Shown: positions 4,579-51,451 of the stretch, in pieces | How positions within the stretch are numbered: the first letter of the stretch is position 1 | Layout: every line of letters begins with the position of its first letter | Assembly: GCA_903862655.1 (NCBI GenBank) | Contig: CAIOZA010000021.1 | Location: forward strand, 1 to 64,000 | Length of the DNA: 64,000 nt | Source: an uncultured Ignavibacteria bacterium | Lineage (GTDB): Bacteria; Bacteroidota; Ignavibacteria; Kapaibacteriales; UBA2268 | Direction: 5' to 3' | Notes under the pieces: model-generated | Databases searched by the model: none | What the model was told of the DNA's origin: nothing | What the model saw: only the letters and a program-made list of their open reading frames with translations | Position numbers and translations under genes: made by a program

Positions 4579-4590
4579 TTCGAGGTTATT

Positions 4591-5529
4591 GTGACGAAAA
4601 CAGCATTGATAGCAATCGGTGGAAATTCCTTAATCAGAGCAGGTGAAAGAGGTACTCTCGACGAACAGTTCGAGAATGCTTATGCGACATCTAAAAGCAT
4701 CGCTTTAATGATTAAAAATGGTTGGGATGTAGTAATTACTCATGGTAACGGACCACAGGTTGGAGCAGCCTTATTGCGTTCTGAACGAGCCGCTACCGAA
4801 GTTTATACACATACTTTAGATATGTGTGTGGCAACAACCCAATCCGAAATTGGATATATACTTCAGACAGCCCTGTTCCGCTCTTTCAAGGAGCAGGGAA
4901 TTATACGTGATGTGATGATTATACCTACAATGGTTCGTGTCGATAGAAACGATCCGGCATTTTCGAATCCTACAAAGCCGATAGGTCCTTTTTATTCACA
5001 GCAGGTAGCTGAATTAAAGAAGAAATCATTAGGTTGGGATATAGTTGAAGATGCAGCAAGAGGTTACCGCAGAGTAGTTCCATCACCGGAGCCGGTAGAA
5101 GTTTTGGAATTATCGATAATCAAAAAAATGGTTGATTCAGGTATTATAACCATTGCTTTGGGTGGTGGTGGGATTCCAATTTTAAAAGAAAACGGGGATA
5201 TTCATGGGTCAGAAGCAGTTATCGATAAAGACAGGTCTTCAGCATTACTTGCCAATGGTTTGGATGTCGATCTCTTTATCATCTCTACCGATACAGACAA
5301 GGTCTATTTAAACTTCAAAAAAAATAACCAGAAGGGTATTAGTTCTGCTTCAGCTGACGAAATGGATAATTACTTTAAGGATGGACATTTTCCTCCGGGA
5401 AGTATGGGACCCAAAGTAGAATCTATCGTCAAATATCTGAGAAATGGCGGAAAAAAAGCTATTATTACATCCTATGATTATCTGATGCAGGCTCTTGAAG
5501 GCAAAGCTGGAACTACAATAGTTCCATAG
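4591..5529 (+). CDS. arcC: Carbamate kinase
   Basis: 312 residues of the amino-acid kinase superfamily. It transfers phosphate from carbamoyl phosphate to ADP, giving ATP and carbamate. Motifs are the N-terminal AIGGNSLI glycine loop, HGNGPQVG, ALGGGGIP, STDTDKVY for nucleotide binding, and the C-terminal PPGSMGPKVES. The start is GTG with GAGG eight bases upstream. It follows argF at 12 bases, an arrangement typical of energy-yielding citrulline breakdown. Confidence 0.93.
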   Translation: MTKTALIAIGGNSLIRAGERGTLDEQFENAYATSKSIALMIKNGWDVVITHGNGPQVGAALLRSERAATEVYTHTLDMCVATTQSEIGYILQTALFRSFKEQGIIRDVMIIPTMVRVDRNDPAFSNPTKPIGPFYSQQVAELKKKSLGWDIVEDAARGYRRVVPSPEPVEVLELSIIKKMVDSGIITIALGGGGIPILKENGDIHGSEAVIDKDRSSALLANGLDVDLFIISTDTDKVYLNFKKNNQKGISSASADEMDNYFKDGHFPPGSMGPKVESIVKYLRNGGKKAIITSYDYLMQALEGKAGTTIVP

Positions 5530-5560
5530 GAATAAAATTGAAAAATGACAATACCTAATT

Positions 5561-6490
5561 ATGAATGAGGATTTTATGTTATTAGATCATATTGTTTATT
5601 CGCAACAGTTCACTGTTCCAAAATTGATGGAACTTTTCGAACGTACAGAAGCGATGAAGAAAATTGTTAAAAGAGGCGGCACAAAGGATTATGAGTCTAA
5701 GATTATGGCTACATTGTTCTATGCTCCTTCAACAAGAACCAGATTTTCTTTTGAATCAGCAATGTTTCGCCTTGGAGGTAAAGTCCTTTCTACTGAAAAT
5801 GCAAAGGAATTTTCCTCAGAAATTGAAGGGGAAAGATTAGAAGATACTATCAGAATGCTCAGCAATTACTGTGATGTTATTGTTCTAAGACATTCCGAAG
5901 AGGGTGGAGCAGGAAGAGCTTCTAAAGTTTCTCCCGTTCCTATTATTAACGCAGGTGATGGTTCCGGTGGTCAGCACCCGACTCAGGCTCTTTTAGATTT
6001 ATATACAATCAACTACGAATGTAAAACTCTGGATGGCTTGAGTGTGGCTTTTGTTGGTGCTTTGGATAAAGGGAGAACAGTTCGTTCACTTGCATATCTT
6101 CTGAGTAAATTTGATAGAGTAAAATTATATTTCATCGCTCCTGATGAACTTCAGATTAATAAGGATATTCTTGATCATCTGGACGAAAGGGGAGTATCCT
6201 ATGAACTGCTCTCAACTTCAGAAAAAATCATAAGCAAAGTCGATGTTGTTTATCAAACAAGAATCGACAAGGAAAGACTCAAAAAGAAAAATGAGAATCT
6301 AAGCAGATTCAATATTGATTATAACGTACTGCAAAGTATGAAGAAGAAATCTATCATTATGCATCCTCTCCCCAGATCTGTAGAAATTACTCCTGATGTG
6401 GATTCCGATCCACGTGCAGCGTATTTCAGACAAACTGAGAATGGTTTGTATGTTAGGATGGCTCTACTTACTATGTTATTTGATAAATAA
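5561..6490 (+). CDS. Aspartate-carbamoyltransferase-family protein with altered active site
   Basis: 309 residues, collinear with PyrB catalytic chains. Conserved: STRTR (57-61), Arg110-His111, QHPTQ (138-142), GRTVRS (171-176), Arg234 and HPLPR (268-272). Aligned by eye without gaps to E. coli PyrB, the 80s loop reads SSEIEGE, so the essential Lys84 is Glu89 here. The aspartate-binding R-x-Q reads R-I-D, so Gln231 is Asp236. Both changes add negative charge where carbamoyl phosphate and aspartate bind. It may use another, perhaps cationic, amine, or may be impaired. Calling it pyrB would go beyond what the sequence shows. It lies 31 bases after arcC and 27 before the ornithine aminotransferase gene. 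Confidence 0.8.
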   Translation: MNEDFMLLDHIVYSQQFTVPKLMELFERTEAMKKIVKRGGTKDYESKIMATLFYAPSTRTRFSFESAMFRLGGKVLSTENAKEFSSEIEGERLEDTIRMLSNYCDVIVLRHSEEGGAGRASKVSPVPIINAGDGSGGQHPTQALLDLYTINYECKTLDGLSVAFVGALDKGRTVRSLAYLLSKFDRVKLYFIAPDELQINKDILDHLDERGVSYELLSTSEKIISKVDVVYQTRIDKERLKKKNENLSRFNIDYNVLQSMKKKSIIMHPLPRSVEITPDVDSDPRAAYFRQTENGLYVRMALLTMLFDK

Positions 6491-6517
6491 TTAAAAATAT
6501 ATTTAAAGGATAAATTT

Positions 6518-7726
6518 ATGTTAACAAAAGATTATATCGAAATAGAAGAAAAATATGGTGCTCACAACTACCATCCTCTTGATGTCGTAATCAAAGAAGC
6601 AAAAGGTGTTTGGGTAACTGATGTAGAAGGCAACAGATATCTTGATTGCTTAGCGGCATACTCTGCTGTCAATCAGGGGCATTGCCACCCAAAGATTTAT
6701 GATGTATTTGTTGAGCAGGCTAAACACGTTACATTGACAAGCCGTGCTTTCAGAAATGACAAACTTCCCATTCTCTACAAAAAGCTTCATGACATGACAG
6801 GTTACGATATGGCTTTGCCAATGAATTCAGGTGCAGAAGCCGTCGAAACAGCTGTAAAGACTGCCAGAAGATGGGGCTATGACGTGAAGGGGATAGAAAA
6901 TAATAAAGCAGAAATCATTGTTGCTGATGGTAACTTCCACGGAAGAACTACAACAATAGTTGGTTTCAGTGATGATCCGTCATCTTATGGCGGTTTCGGA
7001 CCATTCACTCCCGGATTCATATTCCATGAATACGGAAATGCTGAAGACTTAAAATCGAAAATATCAAAAAACACTTGTGCCGTTCTTATCGAACCAATTC
7101 AGGGTGAAGGTGGAATCGTCATTCCACCAGAAGGATATTTAAAAGCTGTAGCCCAGATTTGCAAGGATAATAATGTTCTCTTTATCTGTGATGAGATTCA
7201 GGCAGGTCTCGGCAGAAGCGGTAAACTTTTTGCTCATTACTATGAAGATGTCAGACCAGACATCGTAATCATAGGTAAAGCTCTCTCCGGCGGATACTAT
7301 CCAGTCTCAGCAATTCTTGCTGATAAAGAAATCATGGGTGTAATCAAACCTGGTCAGCATGGATCAACATTCGGTGGTAATCCTCTCGCAGCTGCAGTAG
7401 CAGTTCGAGCACTCGAAGTGCTAGAAGAAGAAAATCTTGTCCAACATTCGTTCGAAATGGGAGAATATTTCATTTCCAAACTCAGAGCAATTGACAGCCC
7501 TCACATTTCATTAGTAAGAGGAAAAGGCCTGTGGATTGGATTTGTTCTCGATAGAAAAGCACGCCCATATTGTGAGAAATTAATGGCTGAAGGCATTCTT
7601 TGCAAAGAAACACACGAGAATATCATAAGATTTGCACCACCACTTGTAATCACAAAAGATGAGATTGATTGGGCAGTAGGAAAAATTGAGAAAGTCGTTA
7701 AAGAGCTTGATAACGTCCAGTTTTAA
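6518..7726 (+). CDS. rocD: Ornithine aminotransferase
   Basis: 402 residues, class III PLP aminotransferase. It converts ornithine plus 2-oxoglutarate to glutamate semialdehyde plus glutamate. Motifs: NSGAEAVETAVKTAR for the phosphate-binding loop, FHGRT, IEPIQGEGG, the FICDEIQAGLGRSG stretch, the Schiff-base Lys in IIGKALSGG, and STFGGNPLA. The N-terminal GAHNYHPLDVV and the later EIQAGLGR are typical of RocD rather than ArgD. In the cluster it would drain ornithine released by citrulline phosphorolysis into glutamate or proline, or supply it in reverse. Confidence 0.9.
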   Translation: MLTKDYIEIEEKYGAHNYHPLDVVIKEAKGVWVTDVEGNRYLDCLAAYSAVNQGHCHPKIYDVFVEQAKHVTLTSRAFRNDKLPILYKKLHDMTGYDMALPMNSGAEAVETAVKTARRWGYDVKGIENNKAEIIVADGNFHGRTTTIVGFSDDPSSYGGFGPFTPGFIFHEYGNAEDLKSKISKNTCAVLIEPIQGEGGIVIPPEGYLKAVAQICKDNNVLFICDEIQAGLGRSGKLFAHYYEDVRPDIVIIGKALSGGYYPVSAILADKEIMGVIKPGQHGSTFGGNPLAAAVAVRALEVLEEENLVQHSFEMGEYFISKLRAIDSPHISLVRGKGLWIGFVLDRKARPYCEKLMAEGILCKETHENIIRFAPPLVITKDEIDWAVGKIEKVVKELDNVQF

Positions 7727-14469: not shown

Positions 14470-15378
14470 ATGAAAATAAGCAATAAATCTGATAAACTAT
14501 CAACATCTGAATTGAAGCTATTATCAGAAGAATTTATAGGAACTTATTCAGACAAAAGCTTGCAAACTATCAAAACATATCAGAAAGCTTTGAATGAATT
14601 TCTTTTCTTTTATGACGTTGATAAAGAATTTTACTTTGATAGTGAAGATGTAATCAGATATAAAAATTATCTTCAAACCCGGAAGAGAATGCAGGATTAT
14701 TCTATTCATACATACTTAACGGCATTAAGAAGATTTTTTAATTATTTAAAAAATAAATCAATCCTAACCACAAACCCTGCAAAAGACATTAAACAAAAAT
14801 TGAACAGGAAAAACGGTAAAACAAGTTTTCTAACTTCAAAACAGATAAAATCAATAACAGATAATATAAGTAGGAAACAAATTCCAGGATTGCGCGATAT
14901 TGCAGTTATTGGTCTGATATCATGCACAGGCCTTGCTGAATCTGATCTCTCAGCAATGAAATGCAGTGATTTTAAGATATTTAGAAAAAATTATATTATT
15001 GTTTTCAAGCGGAATAATGAGGAATGCCGGCTAATTTTGCCAGATCATATTGGGATGGCAATAAATGAATATTTATTCGAAAGAGACAAGGGTGCACCTA
15101 GCAAGGATTCGCCGCTATTTGCTAGCCACAGCAACAGAAGTGCTAACCAAGCAATTACTATTAGAGGTTTAAGGGAGATGTTAAAACAAAGAATTGAGCA
15201 AAGTAGTATCAATGAAACTGAAAGTATAAATTTCACACCTCTTGCTCTTAGGCAAAGTGGTGCAGTTTATCTCGCTTCAATAGGAAAAAAGCCTGAAGAG
15301 ATTATGTCAGTTTTACAATTAAAATTTAAACCAACTGCCGAAAGAAATTCAGGATTTATAAAACAATACAACCAATAA
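14470..15378 (+). CDS. Tyrosine recombinase-like protein lacking catalytic residues
   Basis: 302 residues with the full fold: an N-terminal SAM-like core-binding domain (LSEEFIGTYSDKSLQTIKTY) and a phage-integrase domain. The catalytic set is mostly gone. The usual TGLRxSEL reads TGLAESDL, so the first Arg is Ala. HxLRH reads LALRQ, so only the second Arg remains. The LGH box reads LQL and no tyrosine nucleophile follows. The gene is intact and full length, so it is unlikely to be a fresh pseudogene; it may act as a DNA-binding or architectural factor. Divergent from rlmD, 39 bases apart. The window's working XerC/D-type gene is at 40.0 kb. Confidence 0.75.
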   Translation: MKISNKSDKLSTSELKLLSEEFIGTYSDKSLQTIKTYQKALNEFLFFYDVDKEFYFDSEDVIRYKNYLQTRKRMQDYSIHTYLTALRRFFNYLKNKSILTTNPAKDIKQKLNRKNGKTSFLTSKQIKSITDNISRKQIPGLRDIAVIGLISCTGLAESDLSAMKCSDFKIFRKNYIIVFKRNNEECRLILPDHIGMAINEYLFERDKGAPSKDSPLFASHSNRSANQAITIRGLREMLKQRIEQSSINETESINFTPLALRQSGAVYLASIGKKPEEIMSVLQLKFKPTAERNSGFIKQYNQ

Positions 15379-15440: not shown

Positions 15441-17708
15441 CTACTTTTTAAATTTGTTTTTCAATAAACTAACTAAGAATCCAAGAATAATTGAACAAAC
15501 GCCAATCCAAACAAAACTTATAAATGGCTTTACAGATGCTTCTAGTGTTAGAATCTCAACAGGAGGAATATATGGCTCATTTGCCTTTTTAAAACCTAAT
15601 AATGCATCGGATCGGGCAAGGTCATCCTGAGCAGCAAAGAACCGCAGAAATGAGATGTTTATATTCTTCTCATGAATGTTATACCACTTCACATCAGTAT
15701 AAACTGAAGCTTCATCCATAATAGTATAGATTGTATCCACCAGCTCCTTAGAATCAAATTTAATCTTTACCACTGCTCCAAGCTCAATTTTGCTATTTCT
15801 TGTCATGGTTGAATGTGACATATCGTATTGAAGCAATGTGATCTTGATTGATGTATCAAGTGGGCACAGAATAGTTTTATTCTTTTCAATATTTTTAGAA
15901 ATTATTGAATTATCGACATCTGCAGATTTAAGTGTTATATATACATCCTTCAAAAAGAATCTTATAATTCCTGGTTCAATAATTGGAGATTTTCTATTAT
16001 TGAAGTCACTCCAACAGATTGTGGGTTCGATAAACGACTTTTTGCCATTCTGTTCAAGAGATATTCTGTATTTAAACTTTTGTCTGTCAGGTAACATCTT
16101 GTCAATCTGAATTTTATCAACAAAAGTATATTTCAATCCTGCAATTTGTTTGGTCTCACCGTTTTTTATCTGAAAGTGATTAGCCGTAGAGTATACTCCT
16201 GATCCTACAATTCCAATCATGATCAGAGAGATACCAGTATGAGAAAGGAAGCCACCAATACCAAGAGGATTCTTTACCAAAGTGGTTATGGCAAAAGTTA
16301 CATTTACTATTAGAGAAAAGAAAACTGCAAACAGTATAACTGATGAACTAATTTCGTTTGCTCCAAAGAAAAACAAGACGATAACAGTGATTATTGAAGC
16401 CAGAACAGGAATTAGGATTTTCTTTAGAAGTTTATTCAGTGATTCTTCTTTCCAGCCAAGATAAAGAGAAACTGCATTAGAAATTAAAATAAGTATAATT
16501 AATGGAGTATTAATACTATTATAAAATGAAGTTGAGACTGAACTCTTGTTTTGTGCAAAAACCTCAGTAATTATTGGCCAACTTGTTCCAAGAAAAACTA
16601 TCACAGAAGTCAATAGAATAAAAACTGCACCTAAAGTTAACATCAATTCTCTTGACTGGAGTTTAGTGTTAAGCTTTTCACTTTTTATAGATTTCGTATT
16701 TGAAATTAAAGAGTAAGCACCAATTAAAAAGAAAATTATTAGTAATATCAGCAATATAGTATAAACTGTTGTTCCCGGATTTGTAAAGGAATGAACAGAA
16801 CTGTCACCAAGTATTCCGCTCCTGGTGAGGAATGATGCGTAAAGCACCAAAAGAAAAGTAACAATTGCTAAAATATAGTTTGTTATTTTTAGCGCATTTG
16901 TTTTTCTTTGAATAATAATAGTATGTATAAAAGCTATTGATGTGAGCCATGGAAGTAAAGAAGAATTCTCAACGGGATCCCATCCCCAAAATCCACCCCA
17001 GCCTAATGTTTCATAAGCCCAGAATCCGCCAAGCATAATTCCTAATCCCAGTACTGCTGAGCTAGTAATAATCCAAGGGTAAGCAAAATTAATCCAGTGG
17101 CTATGATCCTTCTTGTAAAGTGATGTTATTGCAAGAATGAAAGGAATTGTCAAAAAGCTATACCCAAGAAATAGAATAGGCGGGTGAATGACCATCCAGA
17201 TGTTCTCCAGAATAGGATTCAGTCCTCTTCCATTAATTGGCATGAATCCGATTGCAACGCCATTGTCCTTGTATGTTTCCCATATGTAGTCGAATGGATT
17301 CTTAATAACAAGAATCAGTAGAATAATTGTTATTAATAAGCCAAATAAACCCATTGAAATTTCTTCATAATTATTCTTCTGCGATGATCTTTGAAAGAAA
17401 AATCCTATGACTGACAGCAATGATAGCCACAGTAGAAACGATCCTTCCTGTCCTGCGAAGAATGAAGACAATAGAAGATACCATGGGAGCTGGTTTGAAG
17501 AGTTCTCCCAGATATATGTAAATTGATAATTATGAGTTAAAATATTGTATAGGAGAAAACCTGATATTCCGATTATTCCTATAAATGATGTCTTTAGAAG
17601 CCATCTTGCTATCAATATTCTTTTCGTATTTCCATTACCGAGGAAATATAGAATTGTTGAAGCAAACGATAATAGAAATATTAACAATAAGACTATTTTC
17701 TCTAACAT
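15441..17708 (-). CDS. ccmF: CcmF/NrfE-type cytochrome c heme lyase
   Basis: 755 residues with many membrane segments. The heme-binding WWD region is GGFWAYETLGWGGFWGWDPV and continues ENSSLLPWL. FFAGQEGSFLLW and the histidine near MVIHPPILF are further CcmF signatures. A soluble periplasmic domain follows near residue 500-700 with one last membrane helix. CcmF attaches heme to apocytochromes c with CcmE and CcmH, none of which is in this window. It lies 18 bases downstream of the OmpA-cytochrome gene, so it may serve this cytochrome cluster specifically. Confidence 0.92.
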   Translation of the reverse strand: MLEKIVLLLIFLLSFASTILYFLGNGNTKRILIARWLLKTSFIGIIGISGFLLYNILTHNYQFTYIWENSSNQLPWYLLLSSFFAGQEGSFLLWLSLLSVIGFFFQRSSQKNNYEEISMGLFGLLITIILLILVIKNPFDYIWETYKDNGVAIGFMPINGRGLNPILENIWMVIHPPILFLGYSFLTIPFILAITSLYKKDHSHWINFAYPWIITSSAVLGLGIMLGGFWAYETLGWGGFWGWDPVENSSLLPWLTSIAFIHTIIIQRKTNALKITNYILAIVTFLLVLYASFLTRSGILGDSSVHSFTNPGTTVYTILLILLIIFFLIGAYSLISNTKSIKSEKLNTKLQSRELMLTLGAVFILLTSVIVFLGTSWPIITEVFAQNKSSVSTSFYNSINTPLIILILISNAVSLYLGWKEESLNKLLKKILIPVLASIITVIVLFFFGANEISSSVILFAVFFSLIVNVTFAITTLVKNPLGIGGFLSHTGISLIMIGIVGSGVYSTANHFQIKNGETKQIAGLKYTFVDKIQIDKMLPDRQKFKYRISLEQNGKKSFIEPTICWSDFNNRKSPIIEPGIIRFFLKDVYITLKSADVDNSIISKNIEKNKTILCPLDTSIKITLLQYDMSHSTMTRNSKIELGAVVKIKFDSKELVDTIYTIMDEASVYTDVKWYNIHEKNINISFLRFFAAQDDLARSDALLGFKKANEPYIPPVEILTLEASVKPFISFVWIGVCSIILGFLVSLLKNKFKK

Positions 17709-17726
17709 AATTCTCCTCTTATGACA

Positions 17727-19556
17727 TTACTTGATAACCACAATTTCAATACGGTTGTTCTTTGCTCGGCCAGCAGTTGAAGTATTGCTGGCAATTGGTG
17801 AAAGAGGACCTTTTCCTACCGATAATATCCTGCTTTTTGCAATACCATTGCTCACAAGATAATCTGAAATTTTTTGTGCTGTTTTGGTAGATTGAATCAT
17901 TAATTCTTCCTGTTTACCAAAGTTATCTGTATAAACCACTATTTGAACTCTGGATTTTAAGTTCTTCTTCAGATATTTAATTGTAGAACTTAAATAGGAC
18001 TTCACAGCTGGTGTTTCAGTAACATCCTTTGCGTCCTTTATGTGTGGTAAGGCTTTTGCTATATTAGGAACAATTTTAGGTTTGGGTTTTACAACAATTT
18101 TTTCAATAGCTACCACTTCAATATTCTTAACCTCAGGTCTTTTATCAGTATTGTTTATTTCTACTTTGATAACTGACGAAACCAAACCCTTATCAATATC
18201 TTTCAATGAAGATTCATCAATCGACAAGTTATAGCTGCCCTGCGGTAGATCTTTTATCGAATACGATAAGTCTTTGCTTATATCTATCAATGTGTCAATT
18301 GTCTTATCACTGTTTGTAACTCTGACATCCATGTCCTCAGCTAAGTTTTTATCTATCTGAGGAGGCAAAACAATCTTGCCGGCAATAGTTGATGATGTAT
18401 CAACTATTGTTTCTGGCTTCTTTTCCTGAACTTTTTCAACAATCTTTTCAACAATCTTTTCTGGAACTTTTTCTGCTGGTTTTTCAACCTCTCCTGCCTT
18501 GGCTATGATTGGACCGTTAATAGGCTCAACCCAGTTATAAGAAAGTTGTTTGTGGCAACCTGGTGCACAAGAACCGCCTTTTTCTTGTTTAGTGAATTTG
18601 ATGTTCATAATCCAATCGCCAAATTTTACTTTATCATTGATGAGAGCCGGATTTGGAGATCCATGTACATCGTGGCAAATTATACAGTTACGTGCTTTGG
18701 GACTATTAATATGCAGAAAATGAAGATTCTTTTTGCCATCTCGGAAATTAGTTGATTCGTCTGTAGACTGTACAGTTAAGAGATCTGAATTGTGACAGGT
18801 AAAACATAAAGCAAAAGATGATTTCACTCCCTTAACATAAGTATTTTTATTAAATGGTTCCGTAAACAAGCCTTTGATCTTCGATGAATGTGGAGTGTGA
18901 CATCCTGTACAGCCATCGTTGACAGGTGCGTGAGTGAATTTGGCTTTCGTTTTTTCCTTTATATTAGGAATTGGACCTTCCTTTGTCTTTATTGTTTTTG
19001 AATGACATGTAAGGCATAAATCTTTTTCTTCGTTTTTAAGTAGTTTTCCGAATTTCGAATTATGCGGATTATGACAAGACATGCAATCTTCCTTGCCAAC
19101 AGGCCCGTGAACGAACTTATTGCCAGATTCCACATCATGGCACATTGTGCAAATAATTTTCTTATCGTTCGTATTTAGGAGTCCTTTTTTGTCTGAGCCA
19201 TGAGGATTGTGGCAAGTTAGGCAGTCGCCATCTTTTACCGGGCTGTGAATCGATTTAGTGGGTCCTGAAATATCATGGCAGGTACTGCAAAGAGCCGGTA
19301 CCTTATCAGTCAGATCAAACTCTTTTCCTGGATCTTCCGGGTGATTACCCTGTTTCAGAGTATGGCATGTTGTACAATCATCCTTTGCAGGGGCATGCAT
19401 CACCTTCTTTTTTATCATATCTTCATGGCAACCAGATGATGTGCAATCAGGTTTCTTTTCCTTTTCTTGTGTATTGGCAAGAAAGAGATTAAATATTACT
19501 GCAACAGCAATAAAAAAGGTAAGTATGACAATTTTATATAGTCGATTTTTTCTCAA
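17727..19556 (-). CDS. Multiheme c-type cytochrome fused to an OmpA-like domain
   Basis: 609 residues. One N-terminal hydrophobic segment (signal anchor) is followed by nine CxxCH motifs (such as CTTCH, CSTCH, CLTCH, CTMCH), many with doubled-CxxCH spacing. Two extra non-standard motifs are present: CTSSGCH (C-x4-CH) at the start and CAPGCH (C-x3-CH) at the end, so up to 11 hemes. Then come a Pro/Glu/Lys-rich linker (about 355-385), a beta-rich stretch and a C-terminal OmpA/MotB-type domain (LGKG-like SVGKG, then GRAKNNRIEIVV). The OmpA part should bind peptidoglycan and place the hemes in the periplasm. Its ATG overlaps the barrel gene's stop by 4 bases. Confidence 0.88.
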   Translation of the reverse strand: MRKNRLYKIVILTFFIAVAVIFNLFLANTQEKEKKPDCTSSGCHEDMIKKKVMHAPAKDDCTTCHTLKQGNHPEDPGKEFDLTDKVPALCSTCHDISGPTKSIHSPVKDGDCLTCHNPHGSDKKGLLNTNDKKIICTMCHDVESGNKFVHGPVGKEDCMSCHNPHNSKFGKLLKNEEKDLCLTCHSKTIKTKEGPIPNIKEKTKAKFTHAPVNDGCTGCHTPHSSKIKGLFTEPFNKNTYVKGVKSSFALCFTCHNSDLLTVQSTDESTNFRDGKKNLHFLHINSPKARNCIICHDVHGSPNPALINDKVKFGDWIMNIKFTKQEKGGSCAPGCHKQLSYNWVEPINGPIIAKAGEVEKPAEKVPEKIVEKIVEKVQEKKPETIVDTSSTIAGKIVLPPQIDKNLAEDMDVRVTNSDKTIDTLIDISKDLSYSIKDLPQGSYNLSIDESSLKDIDKGLVSSVIKVEINNTDKRPEVKNIEVVAIEKIVVKPKPKIVPNIAKALPHIKDAKDVTETPAVKSYLSSTIKYLKKNLKSRVQIVVYTDNFGKQEELMIQSTKTAQKISDYLVSNGIAKSRILSVGKGPLSPIASNTSTAGRAKNNRIEIVVIK

Positions 19557-21550
19557 AATGATCGTTCCAATCTGATGAAAACACTATTAAAGTTCCTTTG
19601 TTCGCCCATGAAATTTCTCGCATAATATTCGTATCCGGAAGTTACTACTATTTGCATTACTCTGGCAGACATCTCAATTCTTAAATTGTTTGAAATTAGA
19701 TCAATGCCGCTGCCTTGTTGATATAGATAGTGATAATTAACCAAAGCCGACGACCAGGAATTTAATGTATAATTTGCCATAATCATGAAATCCGAGGTTC
19801 TTTGTAAGGAATTATCATGGACATAATCTGTATACTGATATCTTGCATTAAATGATAACATAAGTCTATCAGTTACATTGTCAGTAAATCTTGAAAAAAT
19901 ATTAAATGATTCATACGGGAGCACATTTGTTTGGTAGTAATCATATTCTGCACCAAAACTCAATGAATGATAATTAAATTGTACTCCGGCGAATTTCTGG
20001 TTAATATTTCTTAAAGCTTTTAATTCTTGAACTTCAACATTCTTGTAATCTGAAAATAATAAACGATAGTACAATTCCACGAAATTATTAAAAATTGAAA
20101 CTCTTCCATCCATTGCATGTGTTAGGGATAAATATTTGTATGATGACTGATAATCAGCATAGTAATCAATATAGATCTTACTTCCATTTACGATTCTTCC
20201 CCCGGGAATTCTTTTTACTTCGGTATAACTACCCCTGGGAATGAGTAAATAATCAATGTTTTCCAGGAAATTTGTGCTTAGATTCGCATCTCTAATCAAT
20301 AATGTATTGGGACGGATAAAAGGATTATTAATAATCAATGGCTTAGAATCGTCAATTGTGTATTCCTCATTTTGAGCTCTGAATGCCACTTGCTGATTTT
20401 CCATGCTCTCATTCAAACCTCTGAATTCATAGTTCATCCAAAGTATTCCTGTTGGAATCAATTTTTTATAATTAAATCCAACCCCAAAAATTTGCTGAGT
20501 TTCCTTCTGAGTTGATTTGTCCATCAAATTCATTTGATAAAAACCATAAGATCTCAGAGAAAGATATAATTGATTTTCAAGCATTAATGACGGTGAATGC
20601 ATTATCATTTTAGTGGTATCAATTGTCTGATTTGAGTATTGATAGTTAGCTTTTAGAGAAAATCTTTCGGGTAATTGAATTTTCAATTGTTCATTGGCAT
20701 TGAATTGTTTTAACCTTTGGTACCCATTTATGTCATTATACATTATGAATGAATTATAAGTATTATTTCTGTCTCTATCGAAGTATACCGAATTACTTAA
20801 ATTCGCATTGAAAATCTTACTATTCAATGTGTCTGAACCTGAATAGTGTGTCTTCGCTAATTCATAATTTGCATTGACAGAGTTATTACTGTATCCAATT
20901 TCTTTACTCAAACTCATGGATAAAATTTTTCTTTGATCGCTATAGACCCTTTGAGCAGTTATCTCAGTTTGGGACCAATTATTGACATTATAGCCCAAAT
21001 TAATTGGTAATAAGAACGATCTTAACCCAAGATTTACTCCATAAGAAATGCTGTTATTTACAATGTCATTAGTATAGTCTCTGTTTGTCAAAGTTTGAGA
21101 ATATGAATAATGTGTGTTTAAAGCTACCGGAGTGTTATTTAGAAAACTCGCATATAGATTTATTCGTTTAGATGTATTTGACTCTGAACGGTCTGGGATA
21201 ACAATATATTTTTCAGATCTGGAGTCTGGTGAATACTCTCCTTCAACATCTAATTGCATAAGATTAGGATGCCAAATGTAAGATTTAAGGTTTAGTCTTA
21301 ATTTTCCTAGAATTGTATTTGTTTCTTCTTCTAACCTAAAATCATTATTCAATATTATAGTCTGATTCCTATAGAAATCTTCACCAATAATTGTCCCATT
21401 AAATTGAGTAAATTTCCAAAAGCCCAATTTTAAAATATAGTCATCTTCTGCCTTCAATATTCCAACATTGAATATGAATAAGAACAAAATAAACGCGAGT
21501 ATATTTGTCCGGTTAACTGTTACGATTTGTTGTAAATTTTTCCTCATCAT
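19553..21550 (-). CDS. Outer-membrane beta-barrel of a porin-cytochrome complex
   Basis: About 665 residues from the ATG at 21550, which overlaps the upstream cytochrome's TGA (ATGA). The frame is open further upstream, but that would run inside the cytochrome gene. After a signal peptide (ILAFILFLFIFNVGILKA), the sequence is a long run of alternating hydrophobic and polar strands rich in Tyr, Asn and Ser, ending in Phe as outer-membrane barrels do. Sandwiched between two multiheme cytochromes with 4-base overlaps on both sides, it is best read as the porin that carries a cytochrome across the outer membrane, like MtrB or Geobacter OmbB. It has no sequence motif that proves this. Confidence 0.72.
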   Translation of the reverse strand: MMRKNLQQIVTVNRTNILAFILFLFIFNVGILKAEDDYILKLGFWKFTQFNGTIIGEDFYRNQTIILNNDFRLEEETNTILGKLRLNLKSYIWHPNLMQLDVEGEYSPDSRSEKYIVIPDRSESNTSKRINLYASFLNNTPVALNTHYSYSQTLTNRDYTNDIVNNSISYGVNLGLRSFLLPINLGYNVNNWSQTEITAQRVYSDQRKILSMSLSKEIGYSNNSVNANYELAKTHYSGSDTLNSKIFNANLSNSVYFDRDRNNTYNSFIMYNDINGYQRLKQFNANEQLKIQLPERFSLKANYQYSNQTIDTTKMIMHSPSLMLENQLYLSLRSYGFYQMNLMDKSTQKETQQIFGVGFNYKKLIPTGILWMNYEFRGLNESMENQQVAFRAQNEEYTIDDSKPLIINNPFIRPNTLLIRDANLSTNFLENIDYLLIPRGSYTEVKRIPGGRIVNGSKIYIDYYADYQSSYKYLSLTHAMDGRVSIFNNFVELYYRLLFSDYKNVEVQELKALRNINQKFAGVQFNYHSLSFGAEYDYYQTNVLPYESFNIFSRFTDNVTDRLMLSFNARYQYTDYVHDNSLQRTSDFMIMANYTLNSWSSALVNYHYLYQQGSGIDLISNNLRIEMSARVMQIVVTSGYEYYARNFMGEQRNFNSVFIRLERSF

Positions 21551-22113
21551 TTCATAAATGTCCTGTCGGACCCTCCATGAGGATTGTGGCAATCCCAGCA
21601 TACTGTTTCATCAATGGAACTATGAACATCATTCTTCATGACATCAGATTTTGAATGGCATTTAAAGCAAAGCTTCTGTTTGTCACTCAACAATAAGTAC
21701 TTAAATTCAGAAGAATGTGGATTGTGACATTCTGTACAGTAACCCGATTCTAATGGACCATGCAGAACTGCATATTTAGTCGAAAATGATTCATGACATG
21801 TATAACATAGGTTGGGCTGGGGATCATTTAATTTACTGCCTTTGGTTTGGTCGTGACAATTCGAGCAACCATTATCTAAATAAGGTGGATGGTATACAGT
21901 CAAATCAATCGGAGCTTTCTTGGTCGCAATAACTTTATTGCTGTTGTTCGTAGAATCCGCTTTTGATAATTGGTCGCCATCTGGTTTGGGTACTCCATCA
22001 AAAAATATAGTCAATGTATTATACTTTGTCTCTTTTGAGCATGATGAAATGCCCAGAAACAAAATAAAACACATAGCTAAGATAATCAGATTTTTAAAGT
22101 ATCTATAGTTCAT
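21547..22113 (-). CDS. Pentaheme cytochrome c lipoprotein
   Basis: 188 residues. A lipoprotein signal ends at GISSCSK (lipobox I-S-S-C). Five CxxCH motifs follow: CSNCH, CYTCH, CTECH, CFKCH and CWDCH, with HNPH spacers typical of doubled-CxxCH proteins. It would be anchored in a membrane, probably the outer one, and pass electrons to or through the barrel encoded next. It is the first gene of the tightly coupled set cytochrome - barrel - OmpA-cytochrome - ccmF. Confidence 0.88.
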   Translation of the reverse strand: MNYRYFKNLIILAMCFILFLGISSCSKETKYNTLTIFFDGVPKPDGDQLSKADSTNNSNKVIATKKAPIDLTVYHPPYLDNGCSNCHDQTKGSKLNDPQPNLCYTCHESFSTKYAVLHGPLESGYCTECHNPHSSEFKYLLLSDKQKLCFKCHSKSDVMKNDVHSSIDETVCWDCHNPHGGSDRTFMK

Positions 22114-22123
22114 TAATAATTAT

Positions 22124-22158
22124 CAAATTTAATTTAAACTTATCTCGGAATTAGCAAA
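22124..22158 (-). promoter_or_regulatory. Promoter of the cytochrome-barrel operon
   Basis: On the minus strand TAAATTTG (22131-22124) is an exact TAnnTTTG match ending 10 bases before the ATG. A TTTG (22158-22155) lies 23 bases further upstream. The spacing is slightly long for a Bacteroidota promoter. If used, the transcript would have almost no leader. Confidence 0.45.
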
Positions 22159-22217
22159 GAGTATGTTTCTCATCACTTTTTTATAACAACTTTATACTCT
22201 TTGTAAACTTAATATAC

Positions 22218-23279
22218 TTACTTAGGTTCAACAAAACCATAAACAGAAACTTTATCGGGACCATACTGATTTGTAACAAATATCACATATTTTAGATTAA
22301 AGCTACTATCAACAAACTGACTGAAATATTCTATATTTTGATAATCAATTGCTACCTTTGCAGGTAAATACATATAGCCCGGACCTTTATAAGTGCCCCC
22401 AAAAAATAGGAGTAATTTCCCATCTGGTGCGAAGATTTGAACATTTTCGAATCCTGCGTCCACTACATATAAATTTTGTTTTTCATCAACTGCAACACCC
22501 TTTGGTCTTACAAACTGACCGTTAGCTTTACCGTAAGATCCTATTGATCCCAAGAAATTCCCTTTTAAATCATATTTTTTTATGTGAAATTCCCCGAAAT
22601 CAGTAACATAAATAATATCATTACTAACAGTTAAATTAGTAGGTTGATGCAAAAAGGCTGTATCCGCAGCGTCTGAGATATTTGGAATACTGTCAATCAA
22701 ATGATAATCTGATTTTGAAAACGTGACTATTTTTCCTGCTTTTAAATCAGCTACATAAATTTTATCTTTATATGCACAAACATCTGTAGGTTTCTGCAAA
22801 AAACCCGCTCCAACGCTTTTAATAAAATTCAAGTCTTTATCGAAAACAACTATATCCTTTCTTTCTGCATCGGCGATAAAGAGATATCCTGATTCATCAA
22901 CAAAACAGTTTAATGGTTGTCTTAATTCACCAAAACCTGTTGGTTTAAAAATTGCAAAGCCTTTGTTTATGAAATTAACTATGTCGATGCTCTTGGTTTC
23001 TGCGTCGCACAAATAGAACTTATCCTTAGCTATCGCAATTCCATATGGTTTCCCGATTGGAGTGACAGTTTCAGCTCCCATAAAAAAGCGTTCGAAATCA
23101 TTGCGATACCCCGTTACATCGCCAGAAGTTCCATAAGCTTTTAAAAATTGTATCCTTGTTGTGTCAGGTGGAGCCGGGAAAATAACCAGATTAGACATAT
23201 CAGTTTTCGTAGAAGTACACGATACCAGTAATACAATCGAAAAAAGGATAGTTAGGCATAATTCTATTTTTTGCTTCAT
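22218..23279 (-). CDS. NHL-repeat beta-propeller lipoprotein
   Basis: About 353 residues from the ATG at 23279, chosen because MKQKIELCLTILFSIVLLVSC is a clean lipoprotein signal; an ATG 7 codons upstream adds nothing. Repeated blocks of the form G-hydrophobic-A-V-D-x(4)-hydrophobic-Y-V-V-D-A (for example GVAVDEKQNLYVVDAG) mark NHL repeats that fold into a propeller. Such proteins bind partners and are common beside multiheme cytochromes in Geobacter-like and Ignavibacterium-like conductive clusters. It sits between the tetraheme gene and the lipoprotein cytochrome on the same strand. Confidence 0.82.
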   Translation of the reverse strand: MKQKIELCLTILFSIVLLVSCTSTKTDMSNLVIFPAPPDTTRIQFLKAYGTSGDVTGYRNDFERFFMGAETVTPIGKPYGIAIAKDKFYLCDAETKSIDIVNFINKGFAIFKPTGFGELRQPLNCFVDESGYLFIADAERKDIVVFDKDLNFIKSVGAGFLQKPTDVCAYKDKIYVADLKAGKIVTFSKSDYHLIDSIPNISDAADTAFLHQPTNLTVSNDIIYVTDFGEFHIKKYDLKGNFLGSIGSYGKANGQFVRPKGVAVDEKQNLYVVDAGFENVQIFAPDGKLLLFFGGTYKGPGYMYLPAKVAIDYQNIEYFSQFVDSSFNLKYVIFVTNQYGPDKVSVYGFVEPK

Positions 23280-23362
23280 ATAGTTCCCATTAATATACAA
23301 AAGAATAGGGGCGTTATGGTCACACGCCCCTATTGTCGAATTTAGTGAAAAGCTTTTATTCC

Positions 23363-23989
23363 TTATTTAGCATGGCAAGTTATGCAAAGGGCACTTCCGG
23401 TATTTGCTTTAACAAGCAAATGTGCAATGTTTGCTTTGTTATGAACATCATGGCATGAAGCACATTCCATTTTTCCGGCAAATAACATTGATGAAGAAAT
23501 GGTTCCGCTACCAATTCCCGATGCTGCGGTGATAGCATTAAGACCTCCGTCAGATGCAACCAATGCGGCATCATAAGTAAATGAAATTGGATGATCATTA
23601 GAAAGGTTCGATCCTAAGTTATACGCACCACTGATCATATTTGTTCCATTTGTTTTTCCGCTGAAATTTTCGAGAGCGATTGTCCCGTCATGGCAGCTTA
23701 AACATAATTTTGATGATGCGTTTGGCTGACCAACTGTCGCATTCAATGAAGCTGCATTTGAATATACAGTATATGATGCTACAGCAGAAAGTTGGTGATT
23801 CCATAATGGAGCATTTGTTACTGTTGTGCTCGCATTATGTGGTGTGTGGCATACGATGCAGATTTCTGATGTTGTATTCCATGAATCTCCCGTAAAGTCA
23901 TGAGATGAACCAGTAATTACTGCGTATGATGATATACTTCCAGTTACAAAGAGAACTAGAAGTATCGAGGCTAATTTTGTAAATTTCAT
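23363..23989 (-). CDS. Tetraheme cytochrome c (doubled CxxCH type)
   Basis: About 208 residues from the ATG at 23989. That start has AGGAG nine bases upstream and gives a clean signal peptide (KLASILLVLFVTGSISSYA); an upstream ATG at 24037 is less likely. Four CxxCH motifs: CIVCH, CLSCH, CASCH and CITCH. It is closely related to the N-terminal tetraheme part of the 561-residue cytochrome next to it: both share PLWN, NATxGQP, CLSCHDGTIAL and NDHPISF or DDHPISF at the same spacing. Periplasmic electron carrier. Confidence 0.88.
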   Translation of the reverse strand: MKFTKLASILLVLFVTGSISSYAVITGSSHDFTGDSWNTTSEICIVCHTPHNASTTVTNAPLWNHQLSAVASYTVYSNAASLNATVGQPNASSKLCLSCHDGTIALENFSGKTNGTNMISGAYNLGSNLSNDHPISFTYDAALVASDGGLNAITAASGIGSGTISSSMLFAGKMECASCHDVHNKANIAHLLVKANTGSALCITCHAK

Positions 23990-24023
23990 AAAAAAACTCC
24001 TAAAATAGTTAGACACAAAATAT

Positions 24024-24047
24024 TTGACGTAAAACAATTTTCGTCAA
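24024..24047. promoter_or_regulatory. Dyad-symmetric site upstream of the tetraheme gene
   Basis: TTGACG (24024-24029) and CGTCAA (24042-24047) form an inverted repeat whose inner AAAA and TTTT also match, with one extra T. On the minus strand it lies about 35-58 bases before the ATG, overlapping a TTG that could be a -33 element for TATTTTG further down. The layout suits a repressor or activator site. No regulator gene is adjacent. The rest of the gene-free stretch 24038-24462 is very AT-rich and shows nothing else I can name. Confidence 0.35.
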
Positions 24048-24462
24048 TAAAGTAAATTACTTAATAATACTTGAATATTTATTTTATCAATTTGGATTTA
24101 AAAGATGACACAATCATTTAATTTAACTTCTATATCCGCATGCAATATAATAAAAATTTATTTTAACTAAATAGTAACTATGCAAAATTAAATAATTTAT
24201 ATTCAATAAATCCTAAGTATAAATACTTAATAATCTATTAAGCATCTGAAAAAATAGGACTTAAAGAAAAATATCGAAATATGCAATTAGCTAGCTATTT
24301 GTGATAATAGACAACAATAATAATTCTTGTTCTGAATTATTTTTTTGTAGTGAAAACTTTTGATTATTATTAATCTATCAAAATTGTTGTTTTTCCCGAC
24401 TCAATTTTCAAAGAACAATATAAATAAACAATGATTTATTTATAGTCAAAATAGCAATTTTA

Positions 24463-26148
24463 CTAATAATTCCAACCATTATGATTTGTCGAATGGCAGG
24501 TTAAATAACACGTTCCAGTCCTATATCCATCATCTCGAAAGTATCTGTTACTTCCACTTCTTCTAACAATAGTTGTATCAAAATTAATCAACCTTGAATT
24601 GTTTGTAGCATTGCCCTGAGTGCTACTAATTCCATGTGGATCATGGCATGCATTACAAGGTGCCTTTTCGCTCACAATATGTTTACTGTGTTCTTTAAAT
24701 GTAACATCATTTAAGATAGATGTTCTGCTGTGGCAGCTATAGCAAAGAGCATAGGCCGTTGCAGATTCAGTGGTGTTGTCTGCCGTTGCATATCCTGATT
24801 TTAGCAAACCTCTCACTGTCGAGCCATGAGGACCTTTCGGAACGTTTGTTCCATCAGAAGAATGACAATCAGTGCAATAGATAACACTAGTTGTTGAATA
24901 TCCAGTCACAAGGCTAGGAACGTCACTACTTGGTCCTGCACCAAAAACAGCATGATGTGATGGATTACCAGTGTTGAACTCCAGTCTTACATTTGACTGC
25001 TCAATTATACGAATAGTTCTGGCAGTCTGGCGCCATGATACACTCGAATGACATCTTAAGCATATTTCATATTCATAAGTGACAGGATTAACAGAGCTTC
25101 CTGCACTATTGATTCCCTTAACTTTCTGAGAATTACCTTTTACGGCAGGAGCACTAGCTGTTGCTGCGTTGGATGCATGAGGGTTATGACAGTCAACACA
25201 TTCAACATGTTTTGTCGTAGGTTCATTTCCCTCAGTTGGATCGTGAACGGCTGAATAGCCGGCTACATTATGTTTGTAAGTTTTACTCAGCTCAGAATTA
25301 ATGTTTTTTGTAGAAGAGGCAACATTGCCGTTGTGGCAATATAAGCAGTTGCTTTCTTCAGCACTGTAATTTAATAATCTCTTAGTTCCACCTGCTTGAT
25401 GTGTATTATGACAGCTTTCACATGCATTCTGTTGAGTTGTTGTATATGATGTATGAAGCCAAGGATTGGTTCCGGTTGAGTTCCATGTCGCTGTCGATGT
25501 CTTGTGTGTACTACTAGCCCAGTTGGCATCATTGTGACATACAATACACAAAGTAGAGTATTGATTGGTCGCAACCAGGAATTTTGTATTTGAAGAGTAA
25601 TGCGGATCATGACAAGATGTACACTGCATCTTACCATTAGCATCTAGTTTAACTCCACTCCCCAGAGATGTCGGATTGTTAAGCTTGCCATCTGCGGTTG
25701 CGAGAGCAGCAGTATATGCAAAAGAAATAGGATGATCGTCTCTCAGATCAGTTCCTAGATTAGTTCTTGTTGCCGGCATAGTAGTTGTAGATCCAAAGGA
25801 AATATCAGAAGTACGGCTTGTTACGTGCCCCAAAGCAATTGTACCATCATGGCAGGACAAACAATTTATTGATGATCCGTCAGGCTGACCCATTGTTGCA
25901 TTTAATGTTGTACTGGTATATAAAGAATATGTTGCAGCAGAGTTAGTTCTGTTCCAGAGAGGTGTCCTTGCTGATGCATGAGGAATGTGACAGAAAACGC
26001 AAATCTCTCCTTCGGTTGTAGATTTAACTGAACCGGGACCAGAAGTAGAAAGATTATGTTTGGTAGTTGATATTCTTTGTGATTGAAGGACAGTAAAAAA
26101 AGAAAACAAAGCAAGTCCTATCAATGCCAGAAGTATTTTTATTTTCAT
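24463..26148 (-). CDS. Large multiheme cytochrome c, about 12 hemes
   Basis: 561 residues with an N-terminal signal peptide (KIKILLALIGLALFSFFTVLQSQ). I count eleven CxxCH motifs (CVFCH, CLSCH, CTSCH, CIVCH, CESCH, CLYCH, CVDCH, CLRCH, CTDCH, CYSCH, CNACH) plus a C-terminal CYLTCH (C-x3-CH). Extra histidines (HNTHQ, HNPHA, HDPHG) can serve as distal ligands. The first four hemes match the neighbouring tetraheme protein. Ser/Thr-rich spacers suggest an exported or surface location. Likely terminal carrier of an extracellular electron-transfer chain. Confidence 0.9.
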   Translation of the reverse strand: MKIKILLALIGLALFSFFTVLQSQRISTTKHNLSTSGPGSVKSTTEGEICVFCHIPHASARTPLWNRTNSAATYSLYTSTTLNATMGQPDGSSINCLSCHDGTIALGHVTSRTSDISFGSTTTMPATRTNLGTDLRDDHPISFAYTAALATADGKLNNPTSLGSGVKLDANGKMQCTSCHDPHYSSNTKFLVATNQYSTLCIVCHNDANWASSTHKTSTATWNSTGTNPWLHTSYTTTQQNACESCHNTHQAGGTKRLLNYSAEESNCLYCHNGNVASSTKNINSELSKTYKHNVAGYSAVHDPTEGNEPTTKHVECVDCHNPHASNAATASAPAVKGNSQKVKGINSAGSSVNPVTYEYEICLRCHSSVSWRQTARTIRIIEQSNVRLEFNTGNPSHHAVFGAGPSSDVPSLVTGYSTTSVIYCTDCHSSDGTNVPKGPHGSTVRGLLKSGYATADNTTESATAYALCYSCHSRTSILNDVTFKEHSKHIVSEKAPCNACHDPHGISSTQGNATNNSRLINFDTTIVRRSGSNRYFRDDGYRTGTCYLTCHSTNHNGWNY

Positions 26149-26254
26149 TACATTGCTCTTAAAGTTAAAAAATTAAAACTTGTTAGTAATAATTATAAAC
26201 TGTAAAGGTATAATTGTCTCTAACAAAAAGAATGCCAAAATTAATACTTGCTTT

Positions 26255-27244
26255 TTATATGGCTTTCATAAGTTTAAAAATCTGAACACGACAGTTATAA
26301 CTATCTGTAACATAGATAAAGTTATTATTATCGATAAAAATTCCTGAAGGCATCCAGAATTCACCTGGATTTCTGCCCTGCCTGCCGAAATTATATAAGA
26401 AATTCCCATAAATATCAAATACCTGCACTGCATTTAGCATAGCATCAACTACGAAAATATGTCCATAAGTATCGACTGCGATACCCTTCATTGATGCGAA
26501 GTATCCTGCTGCATCTCCTGAGTGACCAAATGCTGACTTCAATTCAAAATCAGGTGTAAAAACCTGAACCCTGTAATTTAAAGCATCGGTTACATAAATA
26601 TAATCTTTATCGTTATTGATCCAGATGAAAGTCGGAAAATTAAAAGTACTTGTCGTGTCGCCACGTTCACCAAATGTTTGAAGAATATTGCCTTTTAAAT
26701 CGGTAACTAATAATCTGTGGTTACCAGTTTCGGCAATCCAGATCTGTTTCCTGGATTTGAGATAGGCAATCCCTGTAGGTTTATCTAATTTAAGAGAGTC
26801 ATTAAGATTTGATATTTTTGATGTATTTAGATTATAAACAAAAATTTTATTCAATTCAGAATCAGAAAAAACGATCTCATTATCATTAATCTGAGTAATA
26901 CCAACTAGAGATTGCATGGAAGTCTTAATGTCTTCATTAAGAAGAATAAAATCACGTTCATTATAATCATAAAGAACTGGTGTGTATAGTCCCGGATCCA
27001 TAACAATCAGCTTATTGGTGTCAAACGCCATCAAATTGATAGGTTTAACAAATTTCATTATGTCGTGGCCCAGAAAAAAACCAGCCACTTTACTGAAAAA
27101 TCCCTCATTTTCAGCAAAATCCTCAGTTCCATTCAATGTTTTTACATATTGAACGCTAAATTGCGCGGTATCAATCAACTTAACATTTGAGAATAAATCG
27201 ATTGAGAACAAGAAACAGAGGAAAAGTATATATATAAATTTCAT
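26255..27244 (-). CDS. NHL-repeat beta-propeller protein, exported
   Basis: 329 residues with a signal peptide (KFIYILFLCFLFSIDLFS) and no lipobox Cys at its end. At least four NHL-type repeats are visible in the second half, such as IWIAETGNHRLLVTD, IYVTDALNYRVQVF, IFVVDAMLNAVQVFD and IYVTDSYNCRVQIFK. The N-terminal part is divergent. It is the first gene of the cytochrome cluster and a paralogue of the NHL lipoprotein 3 kb downstream. It probably acts as a scaffold or docking surface for the cytochromes. Confidence 0.82.
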   Translation of the reverse strand: MKFIYILFLCFLFSIDLFSNVKLIDTAQFSVQYVKTLNGTEDFAENEGFFSKVAGFFLGHDIMKFVKPINLMAFDTNKLIVMDPGLYTPVLYDYNERDFILLNEDIKTSMQSLVGITQINDNEIVFSDSELNKIFVYNLNTSKISNLNDSLKLDKPTGIAYLKSRKQIWIAETGNHRLLVTDLKGNILQTFGERGDTTSTFNFPTFIWINNDKDYIYVTDALNYRVQVFTPDFELKSAFGHSGDAAGYFASMKGIAVDTYGHIFVVDAMLNAVQVFDIYGNFLYNFGRQGRNPGEFWMPSGIFIDNNNFIYVTDSYNCRVQIFKLMKAI

Positions 27245-45362: not shown

Positions 45363-45436
45363 GGTCCCGTAGTTCAGCAGGATAGAACACCAGTTTCCTA
45401 AACTGGGTGTCGGAGGTTCGAGTCCCCCCGGGATCA
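45363..45436 (+). tRNA. tRNA-Arg (anticodon CCT)
   Basis: A full cloverleaf: acceptor stem GGTCCCG / CGGGATC with one G-U pair, D arm with AGTTCAGCAGGATAGA, anticodon stem-loop CCAGT-TTCCTAA-ACTGG, T arm GGAGG-TTCGAGT-CCCCC, and discriminator A. CCA is not encoded. It reads AGG codons. Such genes are common integration targets, and accessory DNA begins directly downstream. Confidence 0.95.
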
Positions 45437-45515
45437 CTTTTATCATCATTAATTACCCTATAAATCAACTACTTAACAAAAATACAAAATCTAAAGTTCA
45501 AAAAAATGTTCAAAT

Positions 45516-45569
45516 AAAATCATTGATTTCACAATTTAACATGAATCAATGATTTTTCTTTTTTGGTTT
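45516..45569 (+). terminator. Terminator after tRNA-Arg
   Basis: A 13-bp perfect stem (45516-45528 with 45544-45556) has a 15-base loop and is followed by a T-rich tract. The stretch from 45570 to 45899 is AT-rich and gene-free, apart from a 19-codon minus-strand frame and a single ATCGTAAT motif at 45859. Confidence 0.7.
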
Positions 45570-45899
45570 TCATAATATCAAATTATAATACAATTTAGTC
45601 TATTTTGTCAACTTTTTCCAATATTTGTCTTAGATGAGATAAAAAAAATATCAGATAAATTCATCTGATAGTCTCATAATCTGGAATGTACTAATTTTAC
45701 TCAATTTTTATTTATTTGTTATATCTATCATCTCCGAATTGCTGTTTACGTACTTCAGTTTGAATCTAAGGTGAAATTGGTAAGTTGTTACGACTAATCT
45801 ACTATATTTATCGTTATCGAGCATGATTTACTTCTTAATATGATATTTTTTAAAAAACATCGTAATTTCTTTTGATTCTTGCTTCATTGTGTTATCCTT

Positions 45900-46244: not shown

Positions 46245-46250
46245 TGTTGC

Positions 46251-46540: not shown

Positions 46541-46576
46541 TCGCTTCTATACTCATTATTGCTTTATGGTAAATCA

Positions 46577-49102: not shown

Positions 49103-49108
49103 TGTTTA

Positions 49109-49746: not shown

Positions 49747-49890
49747 TTGATTGAATCCTATATTGTTTTACAAACATTTTAAGATTCAAAAATCGATAAG
49801 TCCATTCGGGGGGTGCAACAACCAATTTTTAGGTGTGTTAAATGTAAGTGCTATTCTATTTCCATATAAAATTTTCAGTTATAGCGGGTG

Positions 49891-51381: not shown

Positions 51382-51451
51382 CGAAAAACATTTCTAAAAA
51401 TGATTTATGGAGTAATTTTTTTTAAAGTTAATTCACAATTCCTTCCAGTTT

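Follow-up and report, generated by a model that had tools for sequence, protein, structure and literature searches.

A gene cluster from an uncultured Ignavibacteria bacterium that may join an OmcE-like filament to a Uet-like outer-membrane conduit

The closest known relative of the gene cluster described here is the undecaheme electron transfer (Uet) system, an electron-uptake pathway known from Ca. Tenderia electrophaga and from some Gallionella. As published, Uet combines a tetraheme and an undecaheme cytochrome with a barrel and two NHL proteins (PMC10734462), and the undecaheme gene is Tel_16545 (PMC5371394). The present cluster occupies positions 15441–27244 of a stretch of 64,000 nucleotides, referred to below as the window, from an uncultured Ignavibacteria bacterium (GCA_903862655.1, contig CAIOZA010000021.1). 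Inspection of open reading frames (ORFs) and motifs reveals eight genes, all on the minus strand and transcribed in the order NHL1, 12-heme cytochrome, tetraheme cytochrome, NHL lipoprotein, pentaheme lipoprotein, β-barrel, OmpA-fused cytochrome and ccmF. An earlier note, made from the letters of the window alone, had placed the same genes here, and motif and Pfam matches bear the placement out. We consider it fairly probable that the cluster encodes a Uet-like transmembrane conduit and that its 12-heme protein connects an OmcE-type filament to it.

The two systems have in common an extracellular tetraheme cytochrome (UetA), an 11- or 12-heme cytochrome with doubled CXXCH motifs (UetJ), a β-barrel and two NHL proteins (UetHI), judged by the described composition of Uet. 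The barrel fold of its model makes the cluster barrel a candidate counterpart of UetC. The cluster differs in adding the pentaheme lipoprotein, the OmpA-fused cytochrome and CcmF, and neither a peptidyl-prolyl isomerase (UetB) nor the triheme cytochromes UetDEG are found among its eight genes. Because it lacks these components and has others, we regard the cluster as one that would work like Uet and do not file it as Uet proper. Homology to Uet was probed through related gammaproteobacterial loci rather than Tenderia sequences, and 12-heme homologues with the same partners occur in three of them (L062, L074 and L077). The suggestion in the earlier note of a separate conduit type thus stands with respect to Mtr, but the core composition matches that described for Uet, and the type is widespread. 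In a literature search, no paper naming UetJ also mentions OmcE; the primary Uet paper lies outside the coverage of that search, so we make no claim of priority.

Two further groups of systems were compared by description only. The Geobacter conduits ExtABCD, ExtEFG and OmbB-OmaB-OmcB also combine a barrel with pentaheme or dodecaheme cytochromes, but the operon description consulted names neither an OmcE-like gene nor an NHL protein. The OetABI genes of sulfate reducers that partner anaerobic methanotrophic archaea are likewise clustered with presumed filament cytochromes, which in that case are OmcX/OmcS-like.

The tetraheme cytochrome contains four CXXCH motifs and is homologous over its length to OmcE of Geobacter sulfurreducens, itself a filament subunit (PMC9473688); the candidate distal histidines are conserved. 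A single-sequence search of the Protein Data Bank (PDB) matched it to OmcE (7TFS) with E=1.2e-27 and to the multiheme entry 9YUQ with E=2.2e-28, and a profile of 40 sequences gave E=4.6e-45 and 5.4e-42, respectively. In contrast to OmcE in 7TFS, the cluster tetraheme is linked to a barrel and to a fused 12-heme protein, and its own filament is putative.

The 12-heme protein has 11 CXXCH motifs and one CX3CH. Its N-terminal ~206 residues match 7TFS with E=3.5e-29 in a sequence search of the PDB. The AlphaFold2 model has a mean predicted local distance difference test (pLDDT) score of 82, the other four models scoring 59–73. When this model was aligned with VIA, residues 30–206, a domain with four hemes, fitted 7TFS with Z 13.9 and a root mean square deviation (rmsd) of 2.8 Å over 171 residues, and residues 123–522 fitted MtrA (6R2Q_A) with Z 9.5 and an rmsd of 4.0 Å over 230 residues. 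The predicted protein therefore appears to consist of an OmcE-like N-terminal domain followed by an 8-heme, partly MtrA-like region, so that a filament-subunit fold would pass, within one polypeptide, into a heme wire like that of a conduit. Each heme cysteine and histidine is kept in 95–100% of 88 homologues, as are most of the candidate distal histidines. This conservation, together with the recurrence of the gene order in other genomes, excludes chance as the origin of the heme pattern and the gene set. The earlier note had seen no obvious Geobacter homologues in the cluster; the tetraheme cytochrome and the 12-heme N-terminal domain are, by sequence and model, clear homologues of OmcE.

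The barrel has no family match in Pfam or NCBIfam searches. Its AlphaFold2 model (Table 1) contains about 28 strands and a small inserted domain near residues 400–466. Foldseek listed many large barrels, and re-alignment with VIA placed MtrB (6R2Q_B) at the top with Z 17.8 and an rmsd of 9.3 over 421 residues, two units above the next barrel. The model supports a large conduit-type barrel, although a fold match does not prove homology to MtrB. The OmpA-fused cytochrome has nine CXXCH motifs, one CX3CH and one CX4CH, giving up to 11 hemes, and its profile matches the MtrA chain with E=6.8e-20. The pentaheme lipoprotein partially resembles the same chain (E=6.2e-16 with a profile of six sequences), and a crude test, in which start codons are uncertain, found a lipobox in 32 of 52 of its homologues. 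A barrel, a periplasmic multiheme cytochrome and a redox lipoprotein in one cluster are the general parts of a porin-cytochrome conduit.

Such an outer-membrane conduit had been proposed in the earlier note together with structure prediction of its barrel. It is supported by a confident large barrel that has MtrB as its best structural match, flanked by lipoprotein and peptidoglycan-binding cytochromes. The claim that the cluster is not MtrCAB by sequence also survives, since Pfam and NCBIfam give no MtrB match and the MtrA/DmsE family model TIGR03508 reaches 105.7 bits, far below its cut-off of 192.2. Like MtrCAB, the cluster has MtrA-like heme wires and a barrel whose fold is closest to MtrB; it differs in the absence of an MtrB sequence match and of MtrC, in its heme numbers, and in the presence of NHL proteins and OmcE-like subunits. 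A purely periplasmic electron pathway with an unrelated barrel, to which the Sec signals that several of the proteins carry as their only export signal might point, is highly improbable. We rejected it on the evidence of the lipoprotein cytochrome, the OmcE homology and the MtrB-like barrel, and the near-invariant linkage of the genes also speaks against it.

In the arrangement we favour, quinone-linked inner-membrane cytochromes would exchange electrons with the periplasmic, peptidoglycan-bound OmpA-fused cytochrome, and the electrons would cross the outer membrane inside the MtrB-like barrel along an MtrA-like heme wire. The 12-heme protein would be the joint of the complex. Its 8-heme part may touch or enter the barrel, and its OmcE-like domain would dock as the first or last unit of an extracellular chain of polymerised OmcE-like tetraheme cytochromes. 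The pentaheme lipoprotein would complete the contact at the outer membrane, and the two NHL propellers may help in assembly or scaffolding.

Several points weigh against this arrangement. The cluster proteins are known from genes and models, not from any observed filament, complex or current. None of the solved conduit porins matches the barrel in sequence; its single-sequence PDB search gave spurious matches only, and a profile of 50 sequences gave none. The match of the 12-heme protein to MtrA has an rmsd as high as 4.0 Å, with lower-ranked models at pLDDT 59–73, and the OmpA-fused cytochrome, which is also MtrA-like, may thread the barrel in its place. In OmcE, subunits are joined by a histidine contact, which is putative in the cluster tetraheme. 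Finally, the role of cytochrome filaments as physiological wires is itself disputed (PMC11077965).

The barrel could instead be mainly an usher-like gate for secretion and assembly of the filament, with conduction secondary; the NHL proteins would then be assembly factors, and the 12-heme protein would act as terminator. The cluster encodes no other export route for its tetraheme and 12-heme proteins, and a Pfam search did not find the Por-secretion tail in either. However, the model fits MtrB better than the usher FimD (Z 15.2 with VIA), and alongside the barrel the cluster encodes a redox lipoprotein and a periplasmic cytochrome, which makes a gate of this kind quite improbable.

A second, divergent copy of the cluster is present on another contig of the same genome (G000 contig C126, locus L029:4527-17156). 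It contains all eight genes in the same order, including its own ccmF, with identities of 28–55%. Three relatives of the same family, G020, G077 and G008, show the complete order, the last of them lacking the OmpA domain and any detected ccmF; in G005 the order is divided between two contigs. Of the cytochromes, the 12-heme protein is the best conserved among these relatives (51–62%); of all parts, the barrel is the least conserved (28–37%). The 12-heme protein is encoded in only 7 of the 54 genomes of the family and in 5 of the 296 of the phylum. When GTDB representatives were scanned for it, 570 candidates and 80 near full-length loci were obtained, from at least ten phyla. By the titles of the records, which are mostly metagenome-assembled genomes, the loci occur in Bacteroidota, Ignavibacteria/Chlorobiota, Calditrichota, Nitrospirota, Nitrospinota, Planctomycetota and Verrucomicrobiota, and also in Proteobacteria, Desulfobacterota, Gemmatimonadota, KSB1, Zixibacteria, Acidobacteria and Myxococcales. 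This sporadic but wide distribution, a pattern of occurrence rather than a tree, suggests that the cluster has spread by horizontal transfer. Cultured carriers include Carboxylicivirga marina (L089) and Desulforhopalus sp. IMCC35007 (L075). Some genomes with the cluster also encode stand-alone OmcE-like cytochromes in which a fifth CXXCH is inserted near the C terminus (L037:5654-6310, L038:7272-7925, L039:7824-8477 and L040:6860-7513).

The neighbourhood figures rest on the 80 best matches and so favour closer relatives. Co-occurrence was counted in the 42 12-heme loci flanked on either side by 8.5 kb or more. All 42 contain NHL1; the NHL lipoprotein and the barrel are present in 40 each, and the tetraheme and pentaheme cytochromes in 38 each, whereas an OmpA-cytochrome-like protein, often without the OmpA domain, is found in 30 and ccmF in 6. 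The NHL proteins are thus near-invariant partners, but presence alone does not tell their function. Outside the lineage of the window the usual order is tetraheme, NHL lipoprotein, pentaheme, barrel, NHL1 and 12-heme, which represents the same two blocks permuted. Where NHL1 and the 12-heme gene are neighbours, they overlap in 61 of 75 pairs. Between loci, the pairwise distances of the components are correlated (Spearman 0.29–0.54, with none of 200 permutations as high), to which shared species history contributes.

The 12-heme protein and a separate OmcE-like tetraheme are held by the same five of the 296 phylum genomes. Because the tetraheme profile also matches the 12-heme N-terminal domain, only the separate tetraheme gene in each of the five is informative. 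A separate tetraheme is found in six of the seven family carriers, and in the seventh, G009, the 12-heme gene lies on a contig of 3.1 kb. In the proteobacterial loci L060, L062, L074, L077 and L113 the pentaheme lipoprotein was not detected, though the barrel, tetraheme and 12-heme genes are present. These loci hint that the barrel can do without the pentaheme but not without the 12-heme protein.

Directly 3' of the tetraheme stop codon in the window there is a strong hairpin with a 9-base loop, followed by T residues. A standard terminator scan misses a hairpin with such a loop, and a custom scan was therefore used, with shuffled sequences and the other core genes as controls. Of 62 loci, 30 have a hairpin with a T-run behind the tetraheme gene, compared with 2.0 in shuffles, whereas such an element follows each other core gene in only 2–6 of 57–81 copies. 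This placement sets the tetraheme gene apart from the genes downstream, as expected if its product is needed in excess, and fits the subunit of a polymer. We take it to suggest an over-produced subunit; alternatively, the hairpin may be an mRNA-stabilising element. The 425-base region upstream presumably holds a promoter of the tetraheme gene itself; a sigma-70 scan found promoter sites no more frequent than in shuffles.

In several Bacteroidota, genes for a histidine kinase and a response regulator directly precede the tetraheme gene. In L042, L046, L050, L052, L069 and L089, and in L043 with a LuxR-type regulator, a pair of similarly sized ORFs lies between the 12-heme gene and the tetraheme gene. 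The L042 pair encodes a HAMP histidine kinase that carries a single CXXCH motif, and a response regulator of the sigma-54-dependent type; the two may act as a redox sensor for expression of the filament.

The hairpin also bears on a plain porin-cytochrome conduit that has no filament. In such a conduit the barrel would be threaded by the OmpA-fused cytochrome and capped by the pentaheme lipoprotein, and the OmcE-like tetraheme and the 12-heme protein would be monomeric cytochromes at the cell surface. In the window, the pentaheme, barrel and OmpA-cytochrome genes are translationally coupled, like the three-part conduits published for Geobacter, and the OmpA-fused cytochrome does resemble MtrA. 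We nevertheless hold such a conduit to be unlikely: OmcE forms filaments (PMC9473688), the OmcE-like domain occurs twice in each cluster, the hairpin suggests an over-produced tetraheme, and the OmpA-cytochrome-like gene is present in fewer fully flanked loci than the barrel.

Possible links to the inner membrane are encoded near the cluster or elsewhere in the genomes. In G005 the cluster is followed by genes for a Rieske protein, cytochrome b, an 11-heme cytochrome and a NapC/NirT protein. The genome of the window encodes two b561/NapC-like multiheme proteins beside 13-heme cytochromes. It also has, in a row on contig C18 (L148:2985-6135), a 13-heme cytochrome, a multi-cluster ferredoxin and an NrfD-like membrane protein, a possible further quinone-linked electron module. 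The b561/NapC-like and NrfD-type modules could run either way, and the closest published relatives, the Uet systems of Tenderiales and Gallionellaceae, are proposed to serve electron uptake. The same hardware may thus take up electrons rather than discharge them, a possibility that concerns direction only, overlaps with the conduit-and-filament arrangement, and deserves serious if tentative consideration. The data fit either direction, and a distribution that includes Desulfobacterota and Bacteroidota counts against uptake.

The ccmF gene of the cluster is an additional paralogue, with one per cluster copy. We rejected the idea that the genome has no housekeeping Ccm system and depends on the cluster ccmF, since CcmE, a CcmC-like gene and a housekeeping, third CcmF are encoded on contig C3. 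The extra CcmF would attach heme to the cluster cytochromes, perhaps on account of their CX3CH and CX4CH sites.

The features of the cluster are listed in Table 1. The earlier note had described 4-base overlaps among the pentaheme, barrel and OmpA-cytochrome genes. These occur as ATGA at the pentaheme/barrel junction and as TTGA at the barrel/OmpA-cytochrome junction, and they place the barrel start at 21550 and not at 21601; ccmF follows after a gap of 18 bases, with no overlap. The TTG start of the tetraheme gene is probably too early, an ATG at about 23983 being likelier, and the true start of the NHL lipoprotein is likely the ATG at about 23279.

Table 1. Features of the cluster, with positions in the window
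Feature	Positions	Strand	Basis
NHL1, secreted six-bladed propeller (NHL repeat), first gene of the cluster	26255..27244	-	Pfam NHL E=3.7e-22
12-heme cytochrome, Sec signal, without lipobox	24463..26148	-	heme motifs; 7TFS sequence match; model
Intergenic region, 425 bases, upstream of the tetraheme gene	24038..24462	-	sequence
Tetraheme cytochrome, OmcE family, putative filament subunit	23363..24037	-	7TFS and 9YUQ matches
Terminator-like hairpin	23303..23335	-	arms CAATAGGGGCGT / ACGCCCCTATTC, then TTTTG
NHL lipoprotein, lipobox LVSC	22218..23300	-	Pfam NHL E=3.7e-12
Pentaheme lipoprotein cytochrome	21547..22113	-	5 CXXCH, lipobox ISSC
Large outer-membrane β-barrel	19553..21550	-	AlphaFold2 model, pLDDT 91.5
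Multiheme cytochrome with C-terminal OmpA peptidoglycan-binding domain	17727..19556	-	Pfam OmpA E=1e-10
CcmF-type heme lyase paralogue	15441..17708	-	Pfam Cytochrom_C_asm E=2.1e-33, CcmF_C E=7e-29

A gene for a XerC/D-like tyrosine recombinase at 14470–15378 ends 62 bases from ccmF and is not found beside the second copy; it is a possible trace of cluster mobility. Elsewhere in the window, the region 45363–64000, downstream of a tRNA-Arg (CCT), is probably an integrated element. Encoded there are a mobile-element-type BT4734-like_N protein and a type I restriction-modification system in which a gene for a YhcG-type nuclease separates hsdM from hsdS. A protein encoded at 52716–54551 has two Fibrobacter-succinogenes-major domains, a TIG domain and a Por secretion tail. 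At 3655–7726, two carbamoyltransferase genes surround carbamate-kinase-like and ornithine-aminotransferase-like genes, which likely serve catabolism of arginine or of purine-derived carbamoyl phosphate.

How extracellular cytochrome filaments are electrically connected to the cell has been described as poorly understood (PMC10553843), and the paper on the filament structure left possible tip proteins aside (PMC9473688). The 12-heme protein could be a dedicated adaptor that plugs an OmcE-type nanowire into the conduit, one half being an MtrA-like transmembrane wire and the other a founding or terminal nanowire subunit; we put this forward as a real possibility that falls somewhat short of an even chance. 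If it were true, one operon found across many phyla would encode wire, socket and plug, and would supply a missing link between extracellular filaments and the electron transport chain of the cell. A filament-subunit homologue, a fused conduit-like wire protein and an MtrB-like barrel are almost inseparable genetically in at least ten phyla, which offers concrete proteins and an interface to test. The cluster also carries Uet-like electron exchange beyond Tenderiales and Gallionella into many further lineages, with Bacteroidota, Planctomycetota, Verrucomicrobiota and Nitrospirota among them.

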